Program-made: the position numbers and the translations under genes
Source: Saprospiraceae bacterium
GTDB lineage: Bacteria; Bacteroidota; Bacteroidia; Chitinophagales; Saprospiraceae
Reading direction: 5' to 3'
DNA: 64,000 nucleotides
NCBI GenBank assembly: GCA_020629035.1
Contig: JAHDEC010000006.1
Location: 1 to 64,000 of the forward strand
Shown here: positions 12,764-56,554 of the stretch, piece after piece
Layout of the letters: each line of letters starts with the position of its first letter
Numbering within the stretch: the stretch's first letter is position 1
The notes under the pieces: generated by a model
Databases searched by the model: none
Told to the model about the DNA's origin: nothing
Seen by the model: only the letters and a program-made list of their open reading frames with translations

Positions 12764-13600
12764 CTATTCTATCACTACATCCATCGACGTTTTTATGCCT
12801 ACCATAAAGAAACCAAGAGCACTATCTCCACTAATATTTGTCCCAACATTAGCTGGAGGAGGACTAAACAAACCTGCTTGTCCGTAGACTGCTTGATCTA
12901 CGCTCGAAATATAATTAAACGCTGCTTTAGAAAGACCGTAAGCCTCCACGACCACTGTATCTCCTGCAGCATATGTTCCGTCTGCAATCACAAAATCCTC
13001 AAACAGAACACCATCTACCATCTCATCATTTACACTGAACATATAATCCAAGGTCAATTCTTCAGTTAGCTGTTTAGGCACAATAGAAAAAAGAAAGAAA
13101 TCTCCTGGACCGGCCGGCTCCTGGATACTCGTAAAAATGCTATAAATAGGACGTTCTACAATCTCGCCAGTTTCACCATCCTGTTCTTCAATATAGGAAG
13201 TAATAGCAGCATAAGCATCTAGTAATTCTAGTGATCGATTTGCCACATCACTAGCCTGACTTACTTTATCATTGTACAAAATTTCGATGCTAACACTATC
13301 ACCATCTTTTAAGGGCATTGGTTCAGCAAACTCATACCGTCCTTCATCTGTTTCGACAAGATTGTATGTCAAATCTCCATTGGTAATGCTTACTTCCGCA
13401 CCAGTGGCAAACTCCTTAGCATCAGCACCTAAATAATTATTGCTGAGCGATAAAATGACATACTGATCATCGGGATCGTCGGTTATGAGTCCATCAACTA
13501 CCAGCTTAAGATTATCACCATTATTCAGATCAAGATCTGCAGGTTCTTCACAGGCAAAAGCAAGGCTTATTATTGCTAAAAAAATTAATAGGTTTTTCAT
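12764..13600 (-). CDS. DUF4249 domain lipoprotein (TonB receptor partner)
   Basis: A 278-residue lipoprotein (lipobox LAFAC, Cys17, followed by EEPADLDL). The start of the mature part, LVVDGLITDDPDDQYVILS, followed by ATGAEVSITNGD, is the DUF4249 pattern: an Ig-like carboxypeptidase-type domain that accompanies TonB receptors in Bacteroidota. DUF4249 proteins are thought to be surface lipoproteins helping nutrient capture, as SusD-like proteins do for other receptors, but the ligand is unknown. At 278 residues it seems shorter than many family members. The TonB receptor gene ends only 3 bases upstream, so the two form one unit. Confidence 0.85.
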   Translation of the reverse strand: MKNLLIFLAIISLAFACEEPADLDLNNGDNLKLVVDGLITDDPDDQYVILSLSNNYLGADAKEFATGAEVSITNGDLTYNLVETDEGRYEFAEPMPLKDGDSVSIEILYNDKVSQASDVANRSLELLDAYAAITSYIEEQDGETGEIVERPIYSIFTSIQEPAGPGDFFLFSIVPKQLTEELTLDYMFSVNDEMVDGVLFEDFVIADGTYAAGDTVVVEAYGLSKAAFNYISSVDQAVYGQAGLFSPPPANVGTNISGDSALGFFMVGIKTSMDVVIE

Positions 13601-13603
13601 AGA

Positions 13604-15928
13604 TTAGAATTTTAAATTGTAAGTAAATGCTGGAATAATAGAAAACAAATAAATTTTGGTCGCGCTTGAAATTTCAGGATTTTGTGCGTCTTGGCTAAAC
13701 TCAAAACTGAAAGCATTTTTTCTAGCATATGCATTATAAACACTAATATTTAAGCTCTGATCAATTTTACCAAATAGCTTTTTTGTAGGATTATAAGTCG
13801 CTGCAAGATCCAGTCGATGATAAGCTGGCATACGTTCCCCATTTCTATCTGAATAGATAGGAATCGGCTTACCAAACTGATAATATTTGCCAGTCGGGAA
13901 GGTTACCGCATTACCGGTCTGATATACCCAGTTACCAGAAATATTCCATTTCTTCGTCAAATCATAGGAGGCAATAATCGCTAAATCATGCGTTCGATCA
14001 TACTTCGCGCTGTACCAACCTCCATTATTAATTTCATCTATTTTCTTCTGTGTTTTCCCTAAAGTATAAGCTATCCAACCGGTTAACTTTCCAGTATTCT
14101 TTTGCAGCAATAATTCGAGTCCCATAGATCTAGCCTTACCAATCCTCAACTCACCTTCTAAGCGTTGGTTTAGCAAAAGTTGGGCATAATCTTTAAAGTC
14201 TACTGCGTTGTAAAATTGTTTATAATAAACTTCTGCTGATAGCTCATAATCATTACCTTCTATGTTTTTAAAGTAACCCAAGGCCCACTGATCAGCAGTT
14301 TGTGGTTTAATATTAGGGCTGCTTAGAAACCAAACATCCAGCGGAGATGCAGTCGTTGTATTACTGGCAAGGTGGATGTATTGACTGGTTCGGTTGTAGC
14401 TAAATTTTAGGGAATTTGAAGTATTTAATCGATATCTCATACCAAATCTAGGTTCTAGATTCGCATAACTTTGATAGACCTCGTTTTTCTCATAATCTGT
14501 GGAATCCACATATTCGTAATCCTCATTATAATTATAAACTGTCTGCTTCCCAAGATTCAATAAATTCGAAACTCGAAGTCCGTAATTAATCTTGATGGCA
14601 TCGTTTACTTCTAATTCATGAGAAACATAGACTCCATTCTCTAAGGCTCTTCCTCGTTGAATTTCAAGAATATCAAAAATAGACTCACCAGTTCCTTTCG
14701 CGGTTCCTGGGTCTAAGGTGTGCAGGGTAGATGCTAGGCCATATCGTAGCGTGTTTTTAGGGTTTAGATAATGTACCAAATCATACTTGACACCGTAATC
14801 AATCAACTGTGAGGTCCATTCAAACCCTTCAACACCACCCGTCTGATTTAAGGCATAATCGTAATCACTAGCATAAATACTTAGATTAGAAAACAACTTA
14901 GGACTAAACAAATGATTCCATCTTAAAGTGGCTGTTCTATTGCCATAATTAATCGCAAACTCCTCTCCCTGCCCCATTAAATCATTACCTGTGTAAAGGG
15001 ATAAAAACAAACGGTCTTTTTCACCTAAATCAAAATTTACCTTACCATTCAGATCATAGAAATACAATCGATTATCGTGTATAGTAGTATCTCTTGATAA
15101 GGGTAAAAATAGGTCAGCATAAGTCCTTCTTGCTGCAAACATAGCCGAACCTTTCTTGCCTATCGGGCTCTCAAGATTCAGTCTACTTGAAATTAATCCG
15201 ATACCTGCTGAACCACTAAATTTCTTGGAATTTCCATCCTTCATACGTACATCAACTACTGAAGAAAGTCGACCTCCATATCTTGCGGGCATAGCTCCCT
15301 TGTAGAACTGGACATCCTTGATTGCATCAGCATTGAACACAGAAAAGAAACCCAACAAATGGGAAGCATTGTATACTGGTGCTTCGTCTAAGAGGATTAA
15401 GTTCTGGTCTACATTTCCACCTCGCACGTAAAAACCGCTACTACCCTCACCTGCCGTGGCAACACCAGGCAAAAACTGAATGCCTTTAATAATGTCTACC
15501 TCGCCCATCAGTGCTGGCATTTTTTTCAATGCTGCAATATCTACATTCACCTTACTCATCTGCACTTCTTCGACTCGTTCATTTTCAGCCTTGGCTGAGA
15601 TTACAAGCTCTTCCATAAACAAACCTGCCGTGCTTAACTCGATGTCCATCACTGTATTTTCTTGCAGGGAAAGTTGTTTACTTTCATCCGCATATCCGAC
15701 ATACGAGAAGTTAATGTCGTACTCTCCCTTTTCTACGGTAATCGAATAAAAACCATAGACATTACTCACCGTTCCCTCCTGAATATTGGGAATATAAAGA
15801 CTGGCATTAATGAGCTCCTCACCTGAGGAAGCATCCCTAATGTGGCCGCTCAATGTCACTTTTTCTTGTGAAAAGCCCATCATGCTGTAAAGCATCATCA
15901 TCAAAAATATAATACTTGTTTGCTTCAT
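13604..15928 (-). CDS. TonB-dependent receptor with N-terminal carboxypeptidase-like domain
   Basis: A 774-residue outer-membrane receptor. A signal peptide (to about 20) leads into a CarboxypepD-like domain (LSGHIRDASSGEELINASLYI, about 24-105). The plug domain (about 120-230) includes VDIIKGIQFLPGVATAGEGSSG, FYVRGGNVDQNLILLDEAPV and ARYGGRLSSVVDVRMKDG, and a 22-strand-type barrel ends in an aromatic residue (FTYNLKF). It imports an unknown ligand using TonB energy. There is no N-terminal signalling (STN) domain, so it is not a classical FecA-type sigma regulator. It sits downstream of an ECF sigma/barrel cassette and 3 bases ahead of a DUF4249 lipoprotein. Confidence 0.92.
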   Translation of the reverse strand: MKQTSIIFLMMMLYSMMGFSQEKVTLSGHIRDASSGEELINASLYIPNIQEGTVSNVYGFYSITVEKGEYDINFSYVGYADESKQLSLQENTVMDIELSTAGLFMEELVISAKAENERVEEVQMSKVNVDIAALKKMPALMGEVDIIKGIQFLPGVATAGEGSSGFYVRGGNVDQNLILLDEAPVYNASHLLGFFSVFNADAIKDVQFYKGAMPARYGGRLSSVVDVRMKDGNSKKFSGSAGIGLISSRLNLESPIGKKGSAMFAARRTYADLFLPLSRDTTIHDNRLYFYDLNGKVNFDLGEKDRLFLSLYTGNDLMGQGEEFAINYGNRTATLRWNHLFSPKLFSNLSIYASDYDYALNQTGGVEGFEWTSQLIDYGVKYDLVHYLNPKNTLRYGLASTLHTLDPGTAKGTGESIFDILEIQRGRALENGVYVSHELEVNDAIKINYGLRVSNLLNLGKQTVYNYNEDYEYVDSTDYEKNEVYQSYANLEPRFGMRYRLNTSNSLKFSYNRTSQYIHLASNTTTASPLDVWFLSSPNIKPQTADQWALGYFKNIEGNDYELSAEVYYKQFYNAVDFKDYAQLLLNQRLEGELRIGKARSMGLELLLQKNTGKLTGWIAYTLGKTQKKIDEINNGGWYSAKYDRTHDLAIIASYDLTKKWNISGNWVYQTGNAVTFPTGKYYQFGKPIPIYSDRNGERMPAYHRLDLAATYNPTKKLFGKIDQSLNISVYNAYARKNAFSFEFSQDAQNPEISSATKIYLFSIIPAFTYNLKF

Positions 15929-16007: not shown

Positions 16008-17477
16008 TTAAATCCTCTTATACACACCGAAATCGGCCCTGAGGTATTGTCTTGGAAGTACTAAACGCTTGTCTAAATTCAGCGATATTCCAATGTTTGT
16101 TTGATTATTTAAATGATATTTAAAACCTGTCCCGGCGTAAACTGCAAATTCTGGCAGTGGAAAAGTAAAGCTTTGGTCTGCTTCTGGATCAAAAGCACCC
16201 ACTTCTACACCTTGGTTATAAACATAAATATTTGGTTCGGATAGCCTTATGAGTTGAACACCAAGTGTGAGCCCTACACCGGCATACCATTCGAACTGTT
16301 TAAGGCGTAAACGATAATTTAATCCAATAGGTAAACGAACCGAACTCACGGCAAATCGAATGGTTCCACTACCCTCGATTAAATCACCTGTTTTAAGATC
16401 AGCATCATCGTAAAATTTAATGATCAATGAATCACTATTTACACTGCTTGAAGATCTTAGTGTAGAAGACGAACCATCTTGATATTCGAATGCTAATCCA
16501 AGATCTACATCCATATTCTGAACCGTATACATTAATCCAGAATTGAAACCTAAGCCATTATCATATAGGCGATTTGTCTTGACATGTAAGCCATATTGCT
16601 TATTGTTTTTAGCATTGATAGAGCTAATGCCATCTATGATCGTTGGATTCATCTCATCATATGGTTTAAACCCTACATAAGTGCTGTAGGCGATACCATA
16701 CTCAAATGGCTTAATAATCGGGCTAACATGCATTGTTGGTGAAGCTTCTTGTGCTAAACGTAGGGCTGCACGATTATGGATTAAGTTGTTCAATGCTGCT
16801 GGTTCTAGCAAAGCAATTTCGAATAATTGCTGAGTAGCAAGTCCAATAGCTGCATGTTGTGATTGACTAGTTATGCTCGGTTGATGCTTGCTTGTTGGTG
16901 GAGTATTCGCCTCAGAAACCTTAGGGAAACCTATTTGATTTATATTACTTGTGATTTGCTTAGTTTGCACTGGATTGCTTTCTACAGCTTTAGTCTTTGC
17001 CAGTGGTGATTTTATTTTCGGCCTTGAAGCGGTGGTTAGACCTGAGTTCGTTTTAGTTTTGGACGATTGAACTGGTTTACTAATAGTCTTTTTGTTGGTT
17101 TTGTCCAATGTTGTTTTTCTTGCCGGAGTTTTTGGTTCTTTAGAAACTATAGGCTGTGTGAGTGCTTGCTTTGTGCTTTGTTCCTGTTTAGTTGTTTCTT
17201 GTTCATTTGACTGCTCGGCCAGGTTTATCGAGGTATTACTGATTAATGCTTGTGTTTCTTTATGTTGCTCATTGCCTGCAAACCACCATGTGCTTGCAGC
17301 TATTCCAATGAGTAAAAAAGCGAGTGAAAACCACATAAAAAACGGTTTCTTTTCTCTTTTGGGAAAGCTTGGTTTGGCTTTGTCCCAAAGTTCTTCAGAA
17401 GGCACGTTCCAGCCATCTTCTGCAGGTGTATATTCTTCTAACCTTTTCTTAAAAAAATCATCCATTTTATTATTCAT
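16008..17477 (-). CDS. Single-TM protein with long polar linker and C-terminal outer-membrane-type beta-barrel; candidate anti-sigma partner
   Basis: A 489-residue protein in four visible parts. The short charged head (1-45) holds DDFFKKRLEEYTPAEDGW and a Trp-rich SEELWDKAKP motif. One transmembrane helix follows at about 46-66 (FFMWFSLAFLLIGIAASTWW). Then comes a ~180-residue Lys/Thr/Ser/Gln-rich linker, and from about 255 a C-terminal domain of alternating strands typical of the outer-membrane beta-barrel (OMP_b-brl) fold. The start overlaps the upstream ECF sigma gene by 8 bases, the usual place for an anti-sigma factor. An anti-sigma role for the head is inference; no ZAS or FecR motif is seen. 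A second copy of this design lies at 52923-54458. Confidence 0.75.
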   Translation of the reverse strand: MNNKMDDFFKKRLEEYTPAEDGWNVPSEELWDKAKPSFPKREKKPFFMWFSLAFLLIGIAASTWWFAGNEQHKETQALISNTSINLAEQSNEQETTKQEQSTKQALTQPIVSKEPKTPARKTTLDKTNKKTISKPVQSSKTKTNSGLTTASRPKIKSPLAKTKAVESNPVQTKQITSNINQIGFPKVSEANTPPTSKHQPSITSQSQHAAIGLATQQLFEIALLEPAALNNLIHNRAALRLAQEASPTMHVSPIIKPFEYGIAYSTYVGFKPYDEMNPTIIDGISSINAKNNKQYGLHVKTNRLYDNGLGFNSGLMYTVQNMDVDLGLAFEYQDGSSSTLRSSSSVNSDSLIIKFYDDADLKTGDLIEGSGTIRFAVSSVRLPIGLNYRLRLKQFEWYAGVGLTLGVQLIRLSEPNIYVYNQGVEVGAFDPEADQSFTFPLPEFAVYAGTGFKYHLNNQTNIGISLNLDKRLVLPRQYLRADFGVYKRI

Positions 17478-18021
17478 GGCTGTTAGTGATTAAAAGGTTT
17501 TCTAATTGTTTTTTCAATGTTCTTCGTGCTTTAGATAACTGAGATTTGGAAGTTCCTTCACTGATTCCCAGTTCTTTTGCAATTTCTTTATGTGTATAGC
17601 CTTCGATAACTGACATATTAAATACAATCCTATAACCTAAGGGTAATTGTTGCACTAGCATGGTCAGTTCTTTAGTGGCTAATTTATCGTAGATCGTTTC
17701 TGATTCGTCTGCATAGTAATTTGATTCTTCCTGATCAGACAAGGTGTTTACCCAGTTATGTTTTTTTAGGTATTTCAATGCTGCATTAACTAAGACTCTG
17801 CATGACCAAGTGGTAAAAGCACTTCTTGTAATATCAAATTGGTGTAGGTCTCTAAAAATCTGAACTAATCCTTCCTGAAATATATCATCTGCCTGAGATG
17901 AATTTTTAGCGTATCGCAAGCTCAACATATACCATCTTGTCCGGTATTCGTCATATAGCATTCGCTGTTCTTTTTCGTGACCAGCAACTGCCTTTTTTAT
18001 GATATGTTGAATCTTTTCCAA
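17470..18021 (-). CDS. RNA polymerase sigma factor, ECF/sigma-70 family
   Basis: A 183-residue ECF sigma factor. Region 2 spans about 22-90 (LYDEYRTRWYMLSLRYAKN, ADDIFQEGLVQIF, then FTTWSCRVLVN). Region 4 spans about 125-175 with the helix-turn-helix HKEIAKELGISEGTSKSQLS. It directs RNA polymerase to a small regulon, typically envelope functions. Its 3' end overlaps by 8 bases the membrane-anchored barrel gene, which should be its partner or controller. The TonB receptor and DUF4249 genes follow on the same strand and are candidate targets. Confidence 0.92.
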   Translation of the reverse strand: MEKIQHIIKKAVAGHEKEQRMLYDEYRTRWYMLSLRYAKNSSQADDIFQEGLVQIFRDLHQFDITRSAFTTWSCRVLVNAALKYLKKHNWVNTLSDQEESNYYADESETIYDKLATKELTMLVQQLPLGYRIVFNMSVIEGYTHKEIAKELGISEGTSKSQLSKARRTLKKQLENLLITNSHE

Positions 18022-18142
18022 ATCCTAATTACATACTTTATATCTACTTATGGGACAAAATAGTAAAAAGGGTTGCCTGAGGGTTAAAAAAAAAATGATA
18101 TGAAAGTTCTATGAGCTATACTAAGTCCTTGCCCTTTTACTA

Positions 18143-18583: not shown

Positions 18584-20851
18584 CTAATAAATGATCAATT
18601 TTTGCGAAGTTATGATTTCATTACTTTGTAAATCCTTTACAATTAACACATAAAGTCCTGATGGTTTATTTAACTGAATTTCAGCGTTTGGATGAACCAA
18701 CAGTTGACTTGATATTTTACTGCCAGCAAGATCAAATATTGCTAATTGATATTGATGGTTAGTAGGTTCTTTTAATTGTATGGTGAAGTTACCTGTATTC
18801 GGGTTTGGGAAAATATCTACTAAATTTAATGGTTCTTCAATATCTAAAGGATTTAATTCAGAGACGTAAATTGAAGTAGTTAAATTGGTAACAATGGGTG
18901 GGTTATTATCAAAATAAATATTTGCACCATTACGAACAGTTGTTTCTTCAGCTAAATCCGGCAATGGATCTAATCTAAAGCGAACAAAGCCATGACTTTC
19001 CGGTTCATTACTTTCTGCATCGGGAAGATATATATCCCATTCGAAAACTATGGTATTACCATAAATTTTGTAACTGCCATCGTGGCTACTGCCTAAGTAT
19101 TTGAAGCTGTTCAAATCCATATATTCACTAATAACATCAACAATCCTTACTCGACTAGCTGGGAAATTTCCAGTATTTTGGAAACGTATTGTATATTCTA
19201 ATGGAGTCTCAAAAAGCACTCGATGACTACTGAGATCTGGTTTTACCAGCTTATCATTTGGATCGTAGGAACAGAGCACTTTTTGGGATACAGTGTCCGC
19301 CTTTAATATACCTGAGTGTATATCTTCAAAGGATTGGATGATTTCTATTTGTTCGCCAATATCTTCTTCTGTTGCATTGTTTATGTTGAACCAAACATTC
19401 CATTTTTCACCAGGTTGTAAATCCTCTGTAAGCAGCCAACTTAACTTGTTTTCTTCTATTTGATCTGGAGTAATGCTTGCTTGACCTGAGTAAGAAATTA
19501 GTTTATCTAAAGAGCACGATAGTAAGCCACGAATGGGCATAGTTCCTCTATTTTCTATTTCAAGCCAAACTTTTGTAATCTCATTACAGATGGTCAATTG
19601 ACTATTTGAACTGAGTTCAAAAATGGTCGTTTCAAGCGCAGGTAGAAATCCAACATTCTTTATATAATAGTCGCCAATAGTTGTTACAGAAACATCAGCA
19701 TGCGTGCTTATTTCCCAAGAGTTTTCTCCACCCAAAGAGAGACTATATTCTCCTATACCTACATTAAAAGCAAACGAAGCATCAGCGCTCTGTAGTTCTT
19801 CGAAATAAAATGGTTCAACAATTAAATCAAGAAAAGGCAAGGTTTGATCGATTAATGTATCATACATTTCATTTCCATTTTTATCCCAATAACTAAGCCC
19901 CTTAATAACTGAGGAATTAGCTACTCCAATGACAGCGATGGTATAATCTAGTATTTGCTTACTTAATAAAATTCCGTTTCTATATTCATCGATGCACAAA
20001 CCATAATTGTAAAGACCAAATTGAGAAAAAGTTACATCCATTGATAAATCATCTTGGTTGATGCTTTGCGTATTAGTCAAACCAAATGGCTTTTGAGAAC
20101 TATATTGACCTTCTATAAATACAACATCATCAAATGGAGGCAAACAGACCTCTGGCCAAGGTGAAACACCATTGCATGCATTAGCATTTCCCGGAGTAAT
20201 CCAACCAAGTGTTCCTCCAGCTGATTTTATTTCACAAAAGTTAACAACTAATTCATCACCTTCTTCCTCCATAATATTTAATGGCACCTGAATATTCTCT
20301 CCGTTTGGTAAAACGGATGGAGGTATGTCGCTAAAATAAGGGGAACGATTACATACTGCTAGACCTTCTCCATAAATATATAGTTCTATAGCAATTCCAG
20401 TTTCTAGCGGATTGATTGTATTTATTGTTGAAGGCACTCGACAACATCGCTGATAAGCCAATAAAAAATCAGAACCATCAGTCGGTAAACTAACTGAAAA
20501 AGAATATTCCGCAGATTCAAATTCAGTTATTTCATCACCAACAATGAAAGGATCATCCAAATAGCTAAAGTCTTTGATACTAGAATAAGGTATTTCGTTA
20601 ACACTAGTAAATAGCGTATAACTACCATCATTTTCAAATCTATAAACCCCAATAGATGCAAACTCATCAAAACCAGCTCCATTTCCGAACTTGTCCCTAT
20701 ACATAGCCATAGTGACATTTAATTCCGCCTCTCCGGCTGATATTCCAGCACAACTATACACCATATAGCCTCCCATTATATGCTCTGCTTGGAGTATGGA
20801 ACAACTGAGGAAGATAAGTACACCACTGATGACTAATCGAAAATTCTGCAC
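18584..20851 (-). CDS. Large secreted protein with DUF7619-type repeat-domain and T9SS tail
   Basis: A 755-residue exported protein. The signal peptide ends near residue 22 (ILQAEH). The N-terminal half begins with EHIMGGYMVYSCAG, a block seen at the start of many Bacteroidota gliding/PKD-type surface proteins. Residues of about 530-670 hold the conserved region SYDPNDKLVKP, LEYTIRFQNTGNFPASRVRI, then IYFDNNPPIVTN, the DUF7619/DUF11-like 'conserved repeat' module found in large surface proteins. The T9SS type-A tail covers about 680-755 (FPNPNTGNFTIQL, FDLAGSKIS, final KLIIY). It is probably an extracellular adhesin-like or structural protein. Confidence 0.82.
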   Translation of the reverse strand: MQNFRLVISGVLIFLSCSILQAEHIMGGYMVYSCAGISAGEAELNVTMAMYRDKFGNGAGFDEFASIGVYRFENDGSYTLFTSVNEIPYSSIKDFSYLDDPFIVGDEITEFESAEYSFSVSLPTDGSDFLLAYQRCCRVPSTINTINPLETGIAIELYIYGEGLAVCNRSPYFSDIPPSVLPNGENIQVPLNIMEEEGDELVVNFCEIKSAGGTLGWITPGNANACNGVSPWPEVCLPPFDDVVFIEGQYSSQKPFGLTNTQSINQDDLSMDVTFSQFGLYNYGLCIDEYRNGILLSKQILDYTIAVIGVANSSVIKGLSYWDKNGNEMYDTLIDQTLPFLDLIVEPFYFEELQSADASFAFNVGIGEYSLSLGGENSWEISTHADVSVTTIGDYYIKNVGFLPALETTIFELSSNSQLTICNEITKVWLEIENRGTMPIRGLLSCSLDKLISYSGQASITPDQIEENKLSWLLTEDLQPGEKWNVWFNINNATEEDIGEQIEIIQSFEDIHSGILKADTVSQKVLCSYDPNDKLVKPDLSSHRVLFETPLEYTIRFQNTGNFPASRVRIVDVISEYMDLNSFKYLGSSHDGSYKIYGNTIVFEWDIYLPDAESNEPESHGFVRFRLDPLPDLAEETTVRNGANIYFDNNPPIVTNLTTSIYVSELNPLDIEEPLNLVDIFPNPNTGNFTIQLKEPTNHQYQLAIFDLAGSKISSQLLVHPNAEIQLNKPSGLYVLIVKDLQSNEIITSQKLIIY

Positions 20852-48132: not shown

Positions 48133-48609
48133 CTAATGTCTTGGTGGTGGACCTTTCTTATGCTTTCCACGAGTTGATTCACCTTGTACTAGATGATGTA
48201 TAAATCGCTCAAGTTGTTTTTCCTTTCCTGATGTAACCAACTGTCTCAACTCACTCAAATGCTGACTATTTGCAAGATATATTTGTTCGCTCACTTCCAT
48301 GATCGAATCAAGTAGACTATCCCTTAATGGTTCCAAAGTAGTTTGATAATATTGACTACTCAAGTCCTTTAAATCCTGATTTAATTTAGCTGTAACTTCT
48401 ATGTGTTTAGCCTTAGATGCTTTAAACTTGCTAAAGTCTTCTTCATTTAATTCAAAAACCTTTTGGATGTGAGCTTCATCATTGGGTTTATGATGTCCTT
48501 TCCCTTTATGACCAAAACCACCTTTTCCCATAAACATACTCATCATTAAACCGAGATTTAGCAAAATCAATAGACCCACAAGCCAGGCTAAAAGTTTTAC
48601 TTTATTCAT
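48133..48609 (-). CDS. Membrane-anchored Spy/CpxP/CnrX-like periplasmic protein, His-rich
   Basis: A 158-residue protein with a signal-anchor helix (about 7-28), then a His/Lys/Gly-rich N-terminal stretch (GKGGFGHKGKGHHKPND). A helical hairpin core follows (about 45-135; FELNEEDFSKFKASKAKHIEV, SLLDSIMEVSEQIYLANS, HLSELRQLV), and the end is His-rich (GKHKKGPPPRH). The helices have the Spy/CpxP 'heavy-metal resistance' feel, and CnrX is 148 residues. Its start overlaps the previous gene by 8 bases, and together with the sigma factor it forms a set like cnrYXH (order differs). Metal sensing is inference from His clusters and context. Confidence 0.75.
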   Translation of the reverse strand: MNKVKLLAWLVGLLILLNLGLMMSMFMGKGGFGHKGKGHHKPNDEAHIQKVFELNEEDFSKFKASKAKHIEVTAKLNQDLKDLSSQYYQTTLEPLRDSLLDSIMEVSEQIYLANSQHLSELRQLVTSGKEKQLERFIHHLVQGESTRGKHKKGPPPRH

Positions 48610-48892
48610 GATAGAGTGCTTTTGTAGGTATTAATTGATAACTAGATGCCATTTGCTCAGCGCTTATCTCTGAACGAGCATTAGACATACCAATTAGAAC
48701 AACATTGGCCGTTAATAAAACTAAAAATGAAGCCGCAATCCCAATCACCATGGCTTTAGAAAAACGCTTGTTTTTCTGAATAGTCGACAATGCAACCTGC
48801 TCCATTTTTTTAAATAAAGCACCTGGGGCTTTGACAACATGTGCGTTCTCAAGGGCTGTTAATAATTCATTGGTAAAGTTATTTGTATTCAT
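48602..48892 (-). CDS. Small single-TM protein, candidate anti-sigma factor
   Basis: A 96-residue protein. The cytoplasmic N-terminus (about 1-45) has an amphipathic start (TNNFTNELLTALENAHVV) and a KAPGALFKKMEQVA motif. One TM helix is at about 47-68 (AMVIGIAASFLVLLTANVVL), and a short periplasmic tail follows. No ZAS/FecR motif is seen, but the length and topology match CnrY-type anti-sigma factors (95 residues). Its start overlaps the sigma gene stop (ATGA), and its end overlaps the Spy-like gene by 8 bases, so the three form one tightly coupled unit. Confidence 0.72.
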   Translation of the reverse strand: MNTNNFTNELLTALENAHVVKAPGALFKKMEQVALSTIQKNKRFSKAMVIGIAASFLVLLTANVVLIGMSNARSEISAEQMASSYQLIPTKALYHE

Positions 48893-49422
48893 ATGCCTTT
48901 TTTCATTAAGTAAATTCCCTCAGTATCGAGATATTTCTTTAAGTTTTGACGTGATCTAAGTAATAAACTTTCCACTGCTTTATAGCTTAACTCCATAATA
49001 TCTGCTATTTCTTGGATCTTTAGATGCTCCAATTTATTAAGGATTAATGCTTTCTTCTGATTTGCAGGTAGCTCATTAATAGCTCTAAAAATGATGTCCA
49101 ATTTTTCTTTGCTTTCCATTTGTAAACCTGGGTGCCAAAAATCTGCAGGCTCATAATCCGCACCATCATTTAACTCATTGCGGTGCAGTGAAATTACTTT
49201 GCCAGCTCTCTTTTGTCGATGTTTGTATTTTAAAAAATCCTTTGATTTATTGATAGCAATTCGATAGACCCAAGTTTTTATCGATGCTTGATTCCTAAAA
49301 TTTTCAATGCCAGAAATAGTGGCTAACAATGTATCCTGTATAATCTCTTCAGCATCTTGCTCATCTCTAACATAGCTCATTACCACCGAATAGGTCCAGT
49401 CGACAACCAAATGCGAAAGCAA
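48889..49422 (-). CDS. RNA polymerase sigma factor, ECF type; start codon uncertain
   Basis: At least 177 residues. Region 2 is visible in YSVVMSYVRDEQDAEEIIQDTLLATI and IKTWVYRIAINKSKDFL, and region 4 in KLEHLKIQEIADIMELSYKAVESLLLRS. The TTG at 49422 is the first conventional start, but it removes part of region 2.1; the frame stays open upstream to a TAA at 49512-49510 and encodes a plausible region-2.1 sequence (SELKLLSHL). No ATG, GTG or TTG lies in that extension; ATA at 49497-49495 and CTG at 49452-49450 are the only near-starts. It is the head of a cassette with a small membrane protein and a Spy-like protein. Confidence 0.88.
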   Translation of the reverse strand: MLSHLVVDWTYSVVMSYVRDEQDAEEIIQDTLLATISGIENFRNQASIKTWVYRIAINKSKDFLKYKHRQKRAGKVISLHRNELNDGADYEPADFWHPGLQMESKEKLDIIFRAINELPANQKKALILNKLEHLKIQEIADIMELSYKAVESLLLRSRQNLKKYLDTEGIYLMKKGI

Positions 49423-49589
49423 CTTTAGCTCACTTGGCTTTTGCTTTTTCAGCCGATCTATATTTAGTAATTCCTGGATATTTAGTGGTTTAAGTATTGA
49501 ATATATTGCTTAGTCTACAAAAATGGCGAATTCCCTCGCCTTCTAGCTAATTTTATTTTCCTGCCTAATTTTCGATGAGCATAAAAGTA

Positions 49590-49622
49590 AACTGCCCCAT
49601 CATCTAAGATAATGGGGCAGTT
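49590..49622 (-). terminator. Strong hairpin downstream of the haloperoxidase-like gene
   Basis: On the minus strand AACTGCCCCATTATC (49622-49608) pairs with GATGATGGGGCAGTT (49604-49590) with one G-T pair, a very stable stem 11 bases after the stop at 49634. It is followed by TACTTTTATG, moderately T-rich. It probably ends the haloperoxidase transcript before the sigma cassette, and would also insulate that cassette. Confidence 0.75.
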
Positions 49623-49633
49623 CTAATAAAACT

Positions 49634-51073
49634 TTATTTATGTCCTCTTCGTAAATCAAATTTATTGACTGCATCTGAAATTTCGTAACCTAGTCTTAAG
49701 CCTTCGGTACAATCCATGCGGATATGGACACCTAGGGGTACTCTAGAAAACGCATTTTCGCTCGCCATGTCTTCTATGGTGCTAAAAGTTCTCGGCTCTC
49801 CTAAAAACTCTGTTCTTCCTTCATGACTTCTATCCGTAAAATTGATATCATTTCCGAACTGGTCAATAAAAACTCCACCCGCTGCAGAGGCAAAACATGA
49901 GTGTCCTGATGGATATCCTGGGAAAGAAGGATTAGGCCAGTAAACCAATCTAAACAAGTTGGTTTGGAAGCTCGGATCGATGAACGCACGTATATAATTA
50001 CTTGGTCGCATGACCATATGCTCGTACTTATCAGCCCAAGTCGAAACGGCAGCATCATTCAAAGCAAATCCTAACCTGAGGAATAGTACTAAAGTCTCTT
50101 GCAAGTTTAAATCTGCTTGTTCTGTGAGTTGTTTGGCCAATGATACTTGTCTTCCCGGAGGACTCATCATCAAACCTTCCACATCATCTGACCAAAATTC
50201 AGCAATCCATAAATCTTCATTTTGTTCTTCCTTAGCGGTATTGTTAACTTCAAGTACTTCTTGCATCTGAGCATAGTAATTACTATTAGGATTTACACTA
50301 TACTGAACTGGCGCTACACTGGTAGTTTTCTCAGAAGAAATAACAAAGGTTCTTACCTTTCCCCAGTATGGAAATAACGCACGCTCAGGCTCAGCACTGT
50401 ATGTCCAATATCCATCACCAGTCGGTGGTTCATAACTACTAGGTTGTGGTTCTAGTATTTGTTCTTCAGCTTCTTCGTCTGTCTGACTAAAGGCAATTAT
50501 TTGCTCAGCAACATAAGCTCCCCAAGCGGTGGAATTCTGTACTTCTTCAGTGCTCAAATCTTCTTGAAATTCGTTTTGTAAGCTTGCTTCCAAAGTAGCT
50601 ATGCCTGCCTTTGCACCGTTATCGACATTGGTCATAAAGTGATCTAAAACATCGGCATAAACCGCATTAAGCGCAACTTCAATATCAATCTTTTTTCGAG
50701 CTCTCCGCTGATCAATTTTTAAATCTTGAAACTTTCTAGAGGTGGTCTCATACGATCGCATAAAAGGAGCCGCAGTCTCATACGCAGCTAGATTTATGTA
50801 AGCTATCGCTCTAGCCGTTGCATTTGGTCTCATCCCATAGGCATAACGATCCACCGTAAGGAACAAATCTGCCCACTCAGTGCTGACCTCATGGGTCAGA
50901 TCAGTTAATTCTATATCTCCTTGGTTTGCTCCGCCAGGACCTCCATTTCCTCCACCTCTTAAGGCTAAAGCATCTTCTGATATTAAGTCAGTTTCTAATT
51001 CGTCTGAACAAGATTGTGCAGTAAATAGTAGAACAACTAAAAGGAGCGCCCAATATTTTCTCGTAATCATCAT
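49634..51073 (-). CDS. Vanadium-dependent haloperoxidase/PAP2-superfamily lipoprotein
   Basis: A 479-residue protein with a lipoprotein signal (LLFTAQSC, Cys22). The C-terminal half carries the complete vanadate/phosphate-binding set: KX6RP with Lys349, Arg356-Pro357 (ADKYEHMVMRPSNY), PSGH at 388-391, and SRX5HX3D with Arg444, His450, Asp454 (SRVPLGVHIRMD). These motifs are shared by vanadium haloperoxidases and PAP2-type phosphatases; the long helical N-terminus and the spacing favour the bacterial haloperoxidase-like group. Halide specificity, or phosphatase activity instead, cannot be read from sequence. It should be envelope-bound, and a strong hairpin follows. Confidence 0.87.
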   Translation of the reverse strand: MMITRKYWALLLVVLLFTAQSCSDELETDLISEDALALRGGGNGGPGGANQGDIELTDLTHEVSTEWADLFLTVDRYAYGMRPNATARAIAYINLAAYETAAPFMRSYETTSRKFQDLKIDQRRARKKIDIEVALNAVYADVLDHFMTNVDNGAKAGIATLEASLQNEFQEDLSTEEVQNSTAWGAYVAEQIIAFSQTDEEAEEQILEPQPSSYEPPTGDGYWTYSAEPERALFPYWGKVRTFVISSEKTTSVAPVQYSVNPNSNYYAQMQEVLEVNNTAKEEQNEDLWIAEFWSDDVEGLMMSPPGRQVSLAKQLTEQADLNLQETLVLFLRLGFALNDAAVSTWADKYEHMVMRPSNYIRAFIDPSFQTNLFRLVYWPNPSFPGYPSGHSCFASAAGGVFIDQFGNDINFTDRSHEGRTEFLGEPRTFSTIEDMASENAFSRVPLGVHIRMDCTEGLRLGYEISDAVNKFDLRRGHK

Positions 51074-52922: not shown

Positions 52923-54458
52923 CTATCTATGGCTAGCTAAAGTAAACTGGATTCCAGCACCAAGGGACAAAGAATGATAATGTTGATTAATGATTCCACT
53001 ATGTACGTTCGGAGTCCTTTTATAATTCGCCGAAACAAACCAATGGTGCTGATGCATAATTGGCTGAAGCCATTCTAAACCTACATTTAACCCGATCCTA
53101 TCTGTTAATGTATAACTGAGTTCAGCATTGTTCTCCAAAATCTGATTATTCCCTTCTTCGTCGATGTAATTCGCTTTTCCTTGGTAGTTGTGCAGGAAGG
53201 TATAATTCACACCCACTCGTGTCACGAGCTTTGCTTTGCCTACATCAAATTGATATCCGAGCTGTACAGGAATAGTATACAATTTGTGTTTATTGTTGTG
53301 TCTTATCGTCCTTTCGTATGTATTAATCACTGTACTAGTATCCATAACAAAGGTGGTATCTTGTTTGTCGACAATAATATATCGAACCTCATCCTTTGGA
53401 AGTAGCACCGTATCCTGCCATTGTTCACTATAGTTAAAAAGTTCTTTTACTTCATGGTAGGCTAAACCGGTTTGCAATGAGATACCTGATGTGTGCTGAT
53501 AACCCAGCAAAAACTGAGTATTCGCGTGATAAATAGCGCTTTCTGTAGCTTCATTAGCTTCCAAAAGATTTAAAAAGGAAGCGTCGGGAGTTTGAAAAGT
53601 TCTATTTCTTTTCACAACACCTATGTCTCCTGCTATGGTAACATACCATGGATTTATGCCTGCTAATGTGCTCACTATTTCTTCATCTTTCTCAGTTGCT
53701 GTCGCTTTCTTTGCTAATCGATAAGTTGGCACTAGAAAAGGTCCAATTTCTAGGCCTGGTAACATAGAAATGCTCAATTTTTCGTTAAGACTTGCTCTGG
53801 CCGATCTTGGACTAGAATCCCAGGTTTTATGCTCTGCCGCTTCCTTAAGGCCTGAGCTATTAAGTTGATTTTGTGTTTGTATGGGAGGTGTTTGACGAAG
53901 CGCAAGTTGCTTGTTTTCCTCCATTAGATTAGCTTTTCCTGAAGTGCTCAGTCGATCAGACTCAATGCTTGTCTCAAGTGGCATTTCTGATTTTGTTTCT
54001 GAATTTCCTGGTACACTTAATTTAGTTTTAGTTTTAGTTTTGGTTTTGGTTTTGGTTTTGGAGTCTACTCTTTCTATTTCGTTTGCTTGTTTATTAATTG
54101 CTGGCTTAGGGATATTTACCTTATTATCTTTTACTAAGGCATCTTTAGTATTTTTTTGTGTTTGATCAATGTTGTTGCTCGCTTGATTGGCTAGTTGCTC
54201 GTTTATTATGGTTTGCTCATTATTAATGGATGTTGATTGACTAGTGGTTAGGTCTGTTGGTTTTTGATGCTGAGTATAGTTCCACCATCCCAAACCTATC
54301 AGTAGGAATAAGAGGGGAATTAAAAACCACTTCCAAACTGGCTTTTTCTTTGTCGGATTTAAATCCTGCTTTAAACCTTCTAAAAGATCCTCCTTATCCC
54401 AATCGACAGTATGATTTTTTAGTTTATTCCTGATATGTTCTTCTGAATTCATCTTCAT
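52923..54458 (-). CDS. Single-TM protein with KT-repeat linker and C-terminal outer-membrane-type beta-barrel; candidate anti-sigma partner
   Basis: A 511-residue protein of the same design as the one at 16008-17477. A short cytoplasmic head has a Trp motif (HTVDWDKEDLLEGLKQDL, about 16-34), then a TM helix at about 42-60. A ~150-residue polar linker includes six or more Lys-Thr repeats, and from about 230 a barrel-like domain of alternating strands ends in FTLASHR. The start lies 9 bases after the stop of an ECF sigma gene. The two proteins share layout rather than obvious sequence. An anti-sigma or trans-envelope role is inference. Confidence 0.75.
   Translation of the reverse strand: MKMNSEEHIRNKLKNHTVDWDKEDLLEGLKQDLNPTKKKPVWKWFLIPLLFLLIGLGWWNYTQHQKPTDLTTSQSTSINNEQTIINEQLANQASNNIDQTQKNTKDALVKDNKVNIPKPAINKQANEIERVDSKTKTKTKTKTKTKLSVPGNSETKSEMPLETSIESDRLSTSGKANLMEENKQLALRQTPPIQTQNQLNSSGLKEAAEHKTWDSSPRSARASLNEKLSISMLPGLEIGPFLVPTYRLAKKATATEKDEEIVSTLAGINPWYVTIAGDIGVVKRNRTFQTPDASFLNLLEANEATESAIYHANTQFLLGYQHTSGISLQTGLAYHEVKELFNYSEQWQDTVLLPKDEVRYIIVDKQDTTFVMDTSTVINTYERTIRHNNKHKLYTIPVQLGYQFDVGKAKLVTRVGVNYTFLHNYQGKANYIDEEGNNQILENNAELSYTLTDRIGLNVGLEWLQPIMHQHHWFVSANYKRTPNVHSGIINQHYHSLSLGAGIQFTLASHR
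54021..54062. repeat. Hexanucleotide repeat (about 7 copies) coding for Lys-Thr repeats
   Basis: Seven successive 6-base units, three TTTAGT then three TTTGGT and a final imperfect TTTGGA (plus strand). They lie in frame in the barrel gene and encode Lys-Thr dipeptides in the periplasmic linker. As six bases equal two codons, copy-number change by slippage would lengthen or shorten the linker without a frameshift. Confidence 0.85.
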
Positions 54459-54467
54459 GATATCTCC

Positions 54468-55058
54468 TTAAGTACTTAACTTGGTTTGCTTATAATATTG
54501 GTTTTCATATTGGCCCATGGATTCACTGGCAGTTATCATATTTCTTAGCATCTGCTTTGCTCTACTTAATTGTGATCGAGAAGCACTGGCTGTTATATCT
54601 AGCATCTCTCCTATTTCCTTGTGGCTGTAACCTTCTACTACCTTTAGGTTAAAGATGATTCTACAACCTTCTGGAAGTTGTTGAATAAGTTTGATAATAT
54701 CTTCTGCCTCTAATAGTTCGATCGCAGAAGTCTCTGCTGATAATTCAGCGGTTGCTATTTCATCGCCATCATAGTCCAGGCGTTTGTTTTTATGATAGAA
54801 AGCGTACGATTTATTGATTAATATTCTTCGTAGCCAGGCACCTAGTGCTCCTTTATTTTCATCATATTGATCAATCTTCTTAAAAAATATTAGAAAGGTT
54901 TCCTGGACTAAATCCTTAGCTGAATTTATATCACTTGCATACCGAATCGCGATCGACATCATTTCATCAGCAAAAAGCAGGTACAGCTCTTTTTGAGCTG
55001 CCCACTCTTGCTTTTTACAACTTGCTATTAACTTTTTTATGTTCTTTTTCTTGGTCAA
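54468..55058 (-). CDS. RNA polymerase sigma factor, ECF/sigma-70 family
   Basis: A 196-residue ECF sigma factor. Region 2 reads LYLLFADEMMSIAIRYASD, AKDLVQETFLIFF, GALGAWLRRILINKSYAFY. Region 4 reads LPEGCRIIFNLKVVEGYSHKEIGEMLDITASASRSQLSRAKQ. It is clearly related to the factor at 17470-18021 (shared EGYTHKEI/EGYSHKEI and SQLSKA/SQLSRA). The gene ends 9 bases before the barrel-protein gene, repeating the same cassette. Its regulon is unknown. Confidence 0.92.
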   Translation of the reverse strand: MTKKKNIKKLIASCKKQEWAAQKELYLLFADEMMSIAIRYASDINSAKDLVQETFLIFFKKIDQYDENKGALGAWLRRILINKSYAFYHKNKRLDYDGDEIATAELSAETSAIELLEAEDIIKLIQQLPEGCRIIFNLKVVEGYSHKEIGEMLDITASASRSQLSRAKQMLRNMITASESMGQYENQYYKQTKLST

Positions 55059-55118: not shown

Positions 55119-56300
55119 CTACTGTACAATTATGTTAGTAGGTAAGCTGTAAGTCATATCGAATTTAAAAATCCTAGTATTTCTATTCTCTGGAAAAGTA
55201 GCCGGATCTTCTGGATCAAGCGCAATTCCATACACAAAGGAAAAGCTTCCGTTCTCATTAATTTTAATGTCACTCTGAACTATATTTCCTGGTATTTCGA
55301 GGGTACTTTCTAGATTTAAATCTAGATCCAAAATCGAAAAGAGCATATTTAAACCAGTTTCAGGTTCCGTTTGAATTAGACAAATTCGCTCATCATTGAT
55401 TTCCAGAAATGGCGCCCAACGTTCACCCGCATCAAATAAAAACGAATTAACCACATTCCCATCTAAATCAATTAGCGCAATATAAGTAGGTCTTTCAGGG
55501 TCAAAGAAAGTAGAAACTCTACCAGTAATATAAATACCTTGACCAGGAACATATTTAAGATCACTAACCAGATAATCATCATATTCATTAGCCCAGATAA
55601 TGTTTAAATCATTGTCTAGCAAGCTAAGATTTTTCTTGTTCGAACTTGCTGAGCAGATATACTGACCACTTTCCGTAATACTTAGATTTGTAGGAGACGT
55701 ACCATTTGTACTCAGGATTACCTCATGCATTAATCCATCAGTAAGATGTATTTTTTTCAGTGTCATGGTAACCGCATCTACATCGTATACTAACAATCCA
55801 AAAGTTTCATCATTCTCCAGTTCGGCATCATAAATTAAACCTTTGGTGTCCAATTCGTAGGCACCTAGTAAGGTGAAATCAAAGTCATAAATCTCTAATT
55901 GAACAGCTATGCTTGGATCGTAGTTTTGGAAATCGTTGTCCGTATGGAATCTGTAAATTTTATCGTTATGCATTCGGACTATACCGTAGTTGTCATCATC
56001 ATAGGAAAGCATAATCATCGCATCTAGTGTGCCATCCTTACTTACTTTTAGCATTCTATTATTAGACACAGCAATATAATCTCCGTTGTCTTGCATATAC
56101 AATTCATAATACCAACCATCCTCTTCAAAAGACTTCATATCACAAATCCATGCATCAGTAAGCATAAATTCTCCATTTACATCCTCAGTATCTATTATTT
56201 CAGTTTGATCTATGTCTCCACAACTTGCGATAATAAACAATAAACAAATCGGTACGATCAACCTTAATAAAGGGTTCACCTTATATTTTGCATTTTTCAT
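55119..56300 (-). CDS. Lipoprotein with propeller-like body, function unknown
   Basis: A protein of about 393 residues from the ATG at 56300, chosen because MKNAKYKVNPLLRLIVPICLLFIIASC is a proper lipoprotein signal (lipobox IASC, Cys near 27); the frame reaches 56381 but that extension is not signal-like. The body has repeated strand blocks (NNRMLKVSKDGTLDAMIML, QLEIYDFDFTLLGAYEL, NKKNLSLLDNDLNIIWANEY, GQGIYITGRVSTFFD), a beta-propeller-like pattern of unknown function. It ends 60 bases before the sigma gene on the same strand. Confidence 0.75.
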   Translation of the reverse strand: MKNAKYKVNPLLRLIVPICLLFIIASCGDIDQTEIIDTEDVNGEFMLTDAWICDMKSFEEDGWYYELYMQDNGDYIAVSNNRMLKVSKDGTLDAMIMLSYDDDNYGIVRMHNDKIYRFHTDNDFQNYDPSIAVQLEIYDFDFTLLGAYELDTKGLIYDAELENDETFGLLVYDVDAVTMTLKKIHLTDGLMHEVILSTNGTSPTNLSITESGQYICSASSNKKNLSLLDNDLNIIWANEYDDYLVSDLKYVPGQGIYITGRVSTFFDPERPTYIALIDLDGNVVNSFLFDAGERWAPFLEINDERICLIQTEPETGLNMLFSILDLDLNLESTLEIPGNIVQSDIKINENGSFSFVYGIALDPEDPATFPENRNTRIFKFDMTYSLPTNIIVQ

Positions 56301-56554
56301 TTTTTCTCTTTTAATTAATTCTAATAATTGTTGTTTGAAAGAAATTAGAACTTGTATACACTTTCTAAACATACTATTCACGAATTAGCTAAAACGCTTG
56401 AAAGGTTTTAAAAAAAAAGTATTTTTTCTGAGTTTAGCACGCTTTTGGGAGACAATATAGCTAAATGCTGTTTGATTAAAAGTTTTGTATCCCAAGAGAA
56501 GGACAGGCATTTTTAGGCCTAGCTCACTATAACATGATTAATTCACTAAGCCCA

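Follow-up and report, generated by a model that had tools for sequence, protein, structure and literature searches.

We begin by considering two proteins encoded in a 64,000-nucleotide stretch of a Saprospiraceae genome (below, the window), each of which directly follows the gene of an ECF sigma factor. The question is "what does a protein with a cytoplasmic start and a barrel-like end do next to a sigma factor?" A first-pass annotation had proposed that, at each of two loci, A and B, an ECF sigma gene is accompanied by the gene of a protein of about 490-510 residues. All four open reading frames are found at their assigned places, and the Sigma70_r2 and r4_2 regions of both sigma factors score far over the Pfam cut-offs (4.9e-14 and 1.4e-17 in sigma A). 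The two genes of the pair overlap by 8 nt in locus A and are 9 nt apart in locus B. While the pairing stands, these are not two-gene loci: locus A goes on with genes for a TonB-dependent receptor and for DUF4249, and a lipoprotein gene comes first in locus B. With a probability of roughly 0.8, we read the two partner proteins as anti-sigma factors of the Dma type. The features are collected in Table 1.

Table 1. Features of loci A and B in the window, and related proteins with a sorting domain at the outer end (G006 is a genome of another genus; L numbers are loci in other genomes).
Feature	Position	Strand	Remarks
ECF sigma factor gene A (das-like)	17470..18021	(-)	TTG start; Das clade member
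Dma-like anti-sigma A (predicted), 489 aa	16008..17477	(-)	
A cytoplasmic head, residues 1-45	17343..17477	(-)	two predicted helices (4-14, 28-37)
A transmembrane helix, residues 46-66	17280..17342	(-)	hydropathy; model helix 47-82
A low-complexity linker, residues 67-252	16722..17279	(-)	pLDDT <50 over 89-224
A 8-stranded outer-membrane barrel (predicted), residues 254-472	16062..16718	(-)	
TonB-dependent receptor, gene 3 of A module	13604..15928	(-)	Plug + CarbopepD_reg_2
DUF4249 gene, gene 4 of A module	12764..13600	(-)	PF14054 2.1e-24; same place in G006
Putative promoter element TCAGGCAACCCTT	18068..18080	(-)	about 50 nt before sigma A
ECF sigma factor gene B	54468..55058	(-)	TTG start, agrees with orthologues; Das clade member
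Dma-like anti-sigma B (predicted), 511 aa	52923..54458	(-)	
B cytoplasmic head, residues 1-40	54339..54458	(-)	helices 4-14, 23-33; variant Trp position
B transmembrane helix, residues 41-63	54270..54338	(-)	hydropathy; model helix 42-63
B low-complexity linker, residues 64-266	53661..54269	(-)	pLDDT mostly <50
B 8-stranded outer-membrane barrel (predicted), residues 268-508	52935..53657	(-)	
Lipoprotein gene, gene 1 of B module	55119..56381	(-)	lipobox IASC
Possible promoter element TTCAAGCGTTTT	56391..56402	(-)	before B module
Head-TM-linker-type IX sorting domain	L120:7542-8681, L123:8540-9511, L131:8540-9661, L137:8554-9696, L171:8540-9649		

The one membrane helix ascribed to each partner protein is confirmed both by hydropathy, with a single hydrophobic segment (residues 46-64 in A and 41-59 in B) just behind a basic stretch (KREKKP and KKKP), and by AlphaFold2 models built from 34-row alignments of the window proteins and their relatives. 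In front of it, the models give two short helices with moderate pLDDT (about 57-75). The Trp motif proposed for the heads holds for A, where the conserved family Trp is residue 31, and fails in its position for B, which has Leu at that place and its own Trp 7 residues earlier. A head HMM from whose training A was left out matches the A head at 2.7e-5, and the family head HMM gives no score for B. As a B orthologue retains the early Trp (VDWDKE), we treat the B head as a variant. Behind the membrane helix, the linkers are disordered as described (pLDDT mostly below 50) but longer than the 150-180 residues first given, about 186 in A and about 203 in B. Compared with its orthologue in G006, A has 22% identity in the linker and 56% in the head; against its congeners, B has 50-55% in the head, 38-48% in the barrel and 20-23% in the linker.

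Does the C-terminal domain form an outer-membrane barrel, as was suspected? The Pfam barrel family PF13505 matches both A and B weakly and under its cut-off, and the check by structure prediction that had been suggested decides for a barrel of eight strands (Z 16-18 against known ones). The strands of A lie at residues 255-270, 284-305, 309-331, 366-391, 396-412, 425-440, 444-455 and 459-471, mostly with pLDDT above 90, and B has eight main strands within 271-506. Aligned by Foldseek and VIA-align 2 over the full length of the domain, A matches NspA (Z 17.6) and OmpA (Z 16.6), and B matches OprF (Z 16.6) and OmpA (1qjp, Z 16.2). Because these are full-length matches to 8-stranded outer-membrane barrels, we infer that the barrels are closed, and the two domains are modeled as 8-stranded barrels of the OmpA/NspA type.

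The next question is "how often does such a pair occur in this genome, and with which sigma factors?" Sigma70_r4_2 has 45 matches in the 4.08-Mb genome, and the genes downstream of 40 of these, taken with flanks, were scanned along with both window loci. In this set, 23 sigma genes are followed by a head-TM-linker protein 340 aa or longer; 20 of the 23 proteins match a barrel HMM (E <1e-3), one looks frameshifted and two are left unassigned, while one further sigma-partner locus ends at a contig edge. The genome thus has at least 20 sigma/Dma-like pairs, and probably 23-24. At one locus (L069, C26:84969-86527), the Dma-like frame stops at 340 aa and a piece of barrel continues in another frame, which may be a frameshift or a pseudogene. 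In a tree of 41 of the genome's own ECF genes, all 23 partner-bearing sigma genes fall in one clade (support 93/99) and 0 of the 14 genes outside the clade has such a partner, so the pairing goes beyond chance. The short-head clade takes in 27 of the 41. Its 29 rows, as the Das clade, consist of the 23 sigma genes, two Das2 orthologues and four others, which are the locus truncated at the contig edge, two whose head and TM come without a barrel, and one that has no neighbour.

The pairing is not confined to this genome. A scan of named genomes gives 80 loci of sigma relatives, whose record titles are Bacteroidota except for one Treponema (MAG) and one "bacterium", and a head-bearing protein with its TM segment directly follows the sigma gene in about 75 of them, which bears out the proposed conservation of the pair across the phylum. 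The Trp is at its conserved position in 87 of 93 aligned heads. It could be argued that A and B are plain outer-membrane proteins which keep an uncleaved signal anchor and are neighbours of a sigma gene by chance. All that speaks for this is the weak Pfam barrel score; against it stands a conserved head which, throughout the phylum, goes with a single sigma clade. We find an accident of this kind hardly credible, and we reject the reading of the N-terminus as a signal anchor only, on the grounds of the one-clade pairing and of the head and TM segment found after so many of the sigma relatives.

We turn our attention to the systems already described. In the FecI/FecR/FecA system, the state of the outer membrane is relayed to an ECF sigma factor via an inner-membrane anti-sigma factor. 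The predicted route in A and B is alike in this respect; the difference is that the Fec barrel is a separate TonB receptor, whereas in A and B the barrel is fused to the anti-sigma factor. Much closer in build are the Dma proteins, which consist of a head, a TM segment, a disordered tether and a barrel and adjoin ECF21 sigma genes (PMC13088901); Dma1-3 of B. thetaiotaomicron are described in PNAS 2024 e2321910121, as cited in PMC13088901. A Dma protein represses its sigma factor and its loss increases the output of vesicles; the group is described as confined to Bacteroidota. The dma2 operon has the order das2-dma2-DUF4943-DUF4858-BT_1555, and loss of Dma2 acts via Das2 (PMC13088901). Using this published operon order (DUF4943 synteny), we picked Dma2 orthologues in two other genomes. 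They match the barrel profile of the A/B family (hhalign 99.6%, E 3e-24), the head HMM scores them at 1.5e-5 and 0.74, and the two Das2 orthologues fall inside the same clade as sigma A and sigma B. On the grounds of the barrel match and the shared sigma clade, A and B appear to be additional Dma-type proteins of a design already known from gut Bacteroides (Dma/Reo). They share with Dma a head (in A and B a putative anti-sigma domain), the single TM segment, the disordered tether, the C-terminal barrel, the adjoining ECF sigma gene, the phylum and, likely, an autoregulated operon. They differ in their neighbours (TonB receptor/DUF4249 and lipoprotein as against DUF4943/DUF4858 of Dma2), in a low sequence identity, and in number, with about 20-24 copies in this genome as against the three reported in B. 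theta.

The EcfO-Reo pair of Phocaeicola vulgatus and B. fragilis is a second relative in design: its anti-sigma factor is predicted to cross the periplasm and to end in an outer-membrane barrel, and envelope stress, a BamA inhibitor included, induces the pair in Phocaeicola (PMC9308784, PMC13114119). The likeness to A and B is in this periplasm-crossing chain with its barrel end, for which an outer-membrane stress response has been proposed in Reo; the difference is that the Reo regulon includes nigD genes, and none is present at A or B in the window. NigD-like genes follow the Dma gene at three Tannerellaceae loci tested. A single chain reaching from inner to outer membrane is therefore unusual, as the first-pass annotation said, but it is not new, having been published for Reo (PMC9308784, 2022) and, according to the citing paper (PMC13088901), for Dma1-3 in 2024.

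Which class of anti-sigma domain do the heads resemble? The class I domain (ASDI) has an average length of about 101 residues (PMC7406223); the heads of A and B have 40-45 residues and no anti-sigma family match in Pfam or NCBIfam. CnrY, a class II anti-sigma factor (PMC7406223), is similar in having a short two-helix head that could wrap a sigma factor, and the two helices predicted in the A and B heads would agree with the class II pattern of two short helices that bind sigma2 and sigma4. CnrY differs in that it has no sequence match to the A/B heads and no barrel described for it in PMC7406223. Comparison of the heads with solved anti-sigma structures gives chance-level matches only.

The outer-membrane end varies among the relatives, being a fused barrel, a neighbouring separate barrel gene or a type IX sorting domain. 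Among the head-bearing proteins after the sigma relatives, 39 have a fused barrel, 23 are without one, 5 have another tail and 8 are cut by contig ends. The gene next to the barrel-less proteins matches PF13568, a separate secreted outer-membrane barrel, over the cut-off in 9 of 15 tested, compared with 1 weak barrel match in 33 after the fused proteins, and we conclude from this separate barrel gene that head and barrel go together in the fused and split forms alike. The split form, a short anti-sigma followed by a separate gene of a secreted outer-membrane barrel, is seen at L125, L127, L141, L150, L165 and others. Its existence, and the protease-prone character of low-complexity linkers, fit a reading in which the chain is cut soon after export, leaving a barrel that is an outer-membrane protein like any other and a head and TM stub that acts as a normal anti-sigma factor. 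We consider this very unlikely: in A and B alike, the stretch scanned behind the TM segment contains no small-x-small site resembling that of a signal peptidase, and the fused form is the commonest in the sample (39/80 loci).

Other relatives are of more unusual build. Five Flavobacteriales proteins (Table 1) have a type IX secretion sorting domain instead of the barrel. In the set scanned, CHU_C is found in five members and PKD in four, and the NCBI type B sorting model scores over its cut-off in L120, L131 and L137. A paralogue in the same genome as the window (L082, C59:10100-16400) has five tandem heads before its TM segment, in repeats of ~35 residues, and a Chitinophagaceae protein (L146:8515-10542) has seven, in repeats of ~28 residues; the repeat scores of both exceed 1000 of 1000 shuffles. 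Two heads each are found in L160, L172, L180 and L190, and no report of tandem anti-sigma heads was found in the literature searched. Of 148 Bacteroidota genomes sampled, 51 contain a match (E 1e-6 or better) to a profile of the fused protein; the figure is rough, as scoring was limited to the best candidates of each genome and the barrel alone accounts for some of the matches. These relatives of unusual build (tandem heads, varied outer end) and the roughly two dozen copies in one genome are new here, together with the pairing seen across Bacteroidota and the conserved modules described next.

Are the neighbouring genes part of the system? In G006, the order sigma-Dma-TonB receptor-DUF4249 is the same four-gene order as in locus A, with identities of 55% (sigma), 25% (Dma), 52% (receptor) and 30% (DUF4249). 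In two congeners, the lipoprotein gene precedes B as in the window, with identities of 77/60% (lipoprotein), 71/66% (sigma) and 35/31% (Dma); the true start of this lipoprotein gene is likely at 56300. Both loci are thus conserved modules, A with the TonB receptor and DUF4249 and B with the lipoprotein. This conservation across species would suit a barrel that senses a ligand or partner in the manner of cell-surface signalling, where A watches the TonB receptor/DUF4249 and B its lipoprotein, each paralogue reporting on one outer-membrane client; the orthologue barrels also diverge more than their sigma factors, as receptor domains may. The neighbours may, however, be plain regulon members, and the neighbours in the Dma2 operon are induced yet dispensable for the vesicle phenotype (PMC13088901). 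We hold the partner sensor to be rather unlikely.

Upstream of the sigma genes, we find promoter-like elements. The pattern TCAGGCAACCYTT, derived from its own three sites, has 3 exact matches in the 4.08 Mb, each ~50 nt before a partner-bearing clade sigma gene, one of them sigma A, and the reversed-pattern control gives 0. Independent support for the pattern comes from CAGGCAAC, which also precedes the sigma A orthologue of G006 and, in a congener, the orthologue of the C8 paralogue. The 12-mer TTCAAGCGTTTT is identical before the lipoprotein gene in two congeners; since its genome count of 3 is not above controls, it is a weak candidate for a promoter. The GGAAC word, of the ECF -35 type, is counted 11 times ahead of the 27 clade sigma genes and 0 times ahead of the other 14; the distances are scattered, and we make no claim for it.

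We can now assemble the parts into a mechanism for A and B as Dma-type anti-sigma factors. The two-helix head would bind the ECF sigma factor encoded upstream and hold it in an inactive state at the inner membrane. With the TM helix passing through that membrane, the disordered linker through the periplasm, and the 8-stranded barrel assembled in the outer membrane, one chain would be inserted in both membranes at once. The first-pass annotation had likewise put the barrel in the outer membrane and the sigma factor on the head, with stretch or cleavage as a possible release, and the barrel fold and the conserved pairing support its reading. If the barrel fails to assemble, or outer-membrane damage disturbs it, the chain would most likely undergo a first cut in the periplasm and a second one within the membrane, and the freed sigma factor would transcribe its own operon and the neighbours (TonB receptor and DUF4249 for A, lipoprotein for B). 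The release trigger is here borrowed from other species, and we put assembly and proteolysis alone at slightly short of even odds. Our preference for it has three grounds: BamA is the target of the published inducer, the genome encodes a membrane protease of a suitable family, and the split forms do without a covalent tether. The genome has a strong family match to an M50 protease, as site-2 cleavage would need; with the family near-universal, this shows only that the step is possible. The weakest points are the binding of sigma by the head, the unusual head of B and the negative co-evolution test: sigma and head distances within the genome are uncorrelated (mirror-tree rho 0.03, with 773 of 2000 permutations as high), and the rho of 0.31 across species is confounded by shared descent.

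A different trigger would be a mechanical one, with the linker as a sensor of distance: separation of the membranes or crowding would pull on the TM segment and head and free sigma without cleavage. Linker length is broadly kept over 59 proteins (median 170 residues) while the sequence is not (about 20% identity between orthologues), as such a sensor would have it, although a range of 49-373 residues is loose for a ruler. The relatives with a separate barrel gene have no covalent tether to pull, and induction by the BamA inhibitor in Phocaeicola (PMC9308784) favours assembly over stretch. Such a sensor is clearly unlikely.

With many such pairs in one genome, a tentative picture, which we hold at somewhat less than even, is of about two dozen paralogous lines that connect, in parallel, the outer membrane with transcription, every line having a sigma factor, head and barrel to itself. 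The ends would be modular, with tandem heads on the inside and, on the outside, a fused or separate barrel or a type IX sorting domain tethering the inhibitor to the surface. Only 6% of the ECF genes in Bacteroidota come with a class I anti-sigma domain (PMC7406223), a figure that leaves the control of the remaining ones to be explained. Given this low share and the large fraction of the tree's ECF genes that lie in the clade, the short-head design may be one of the main answers in this phylum. Natural variants on which the release mechanism can be tested are available in its fused, split, multi-head and type-IX-tailed forms.

Two further observations concern the surroundings of the loci. A gene of the window at 18584-20851, which lies upstream of locus A and shares its strand, encodes a 755-aa protein that carries DUF7619 and a sorting tail for type IX secretion. 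A third ECF gene of the window (48889-49422) lies between a PAP2-family lipoprotein-like gene (49634-51073) and the gene of a small membrane protein (48133-48609) that has, by eye, a CnrX/Spy-type likeness, and this trio (48133-51073) is kept together in the congener G001.
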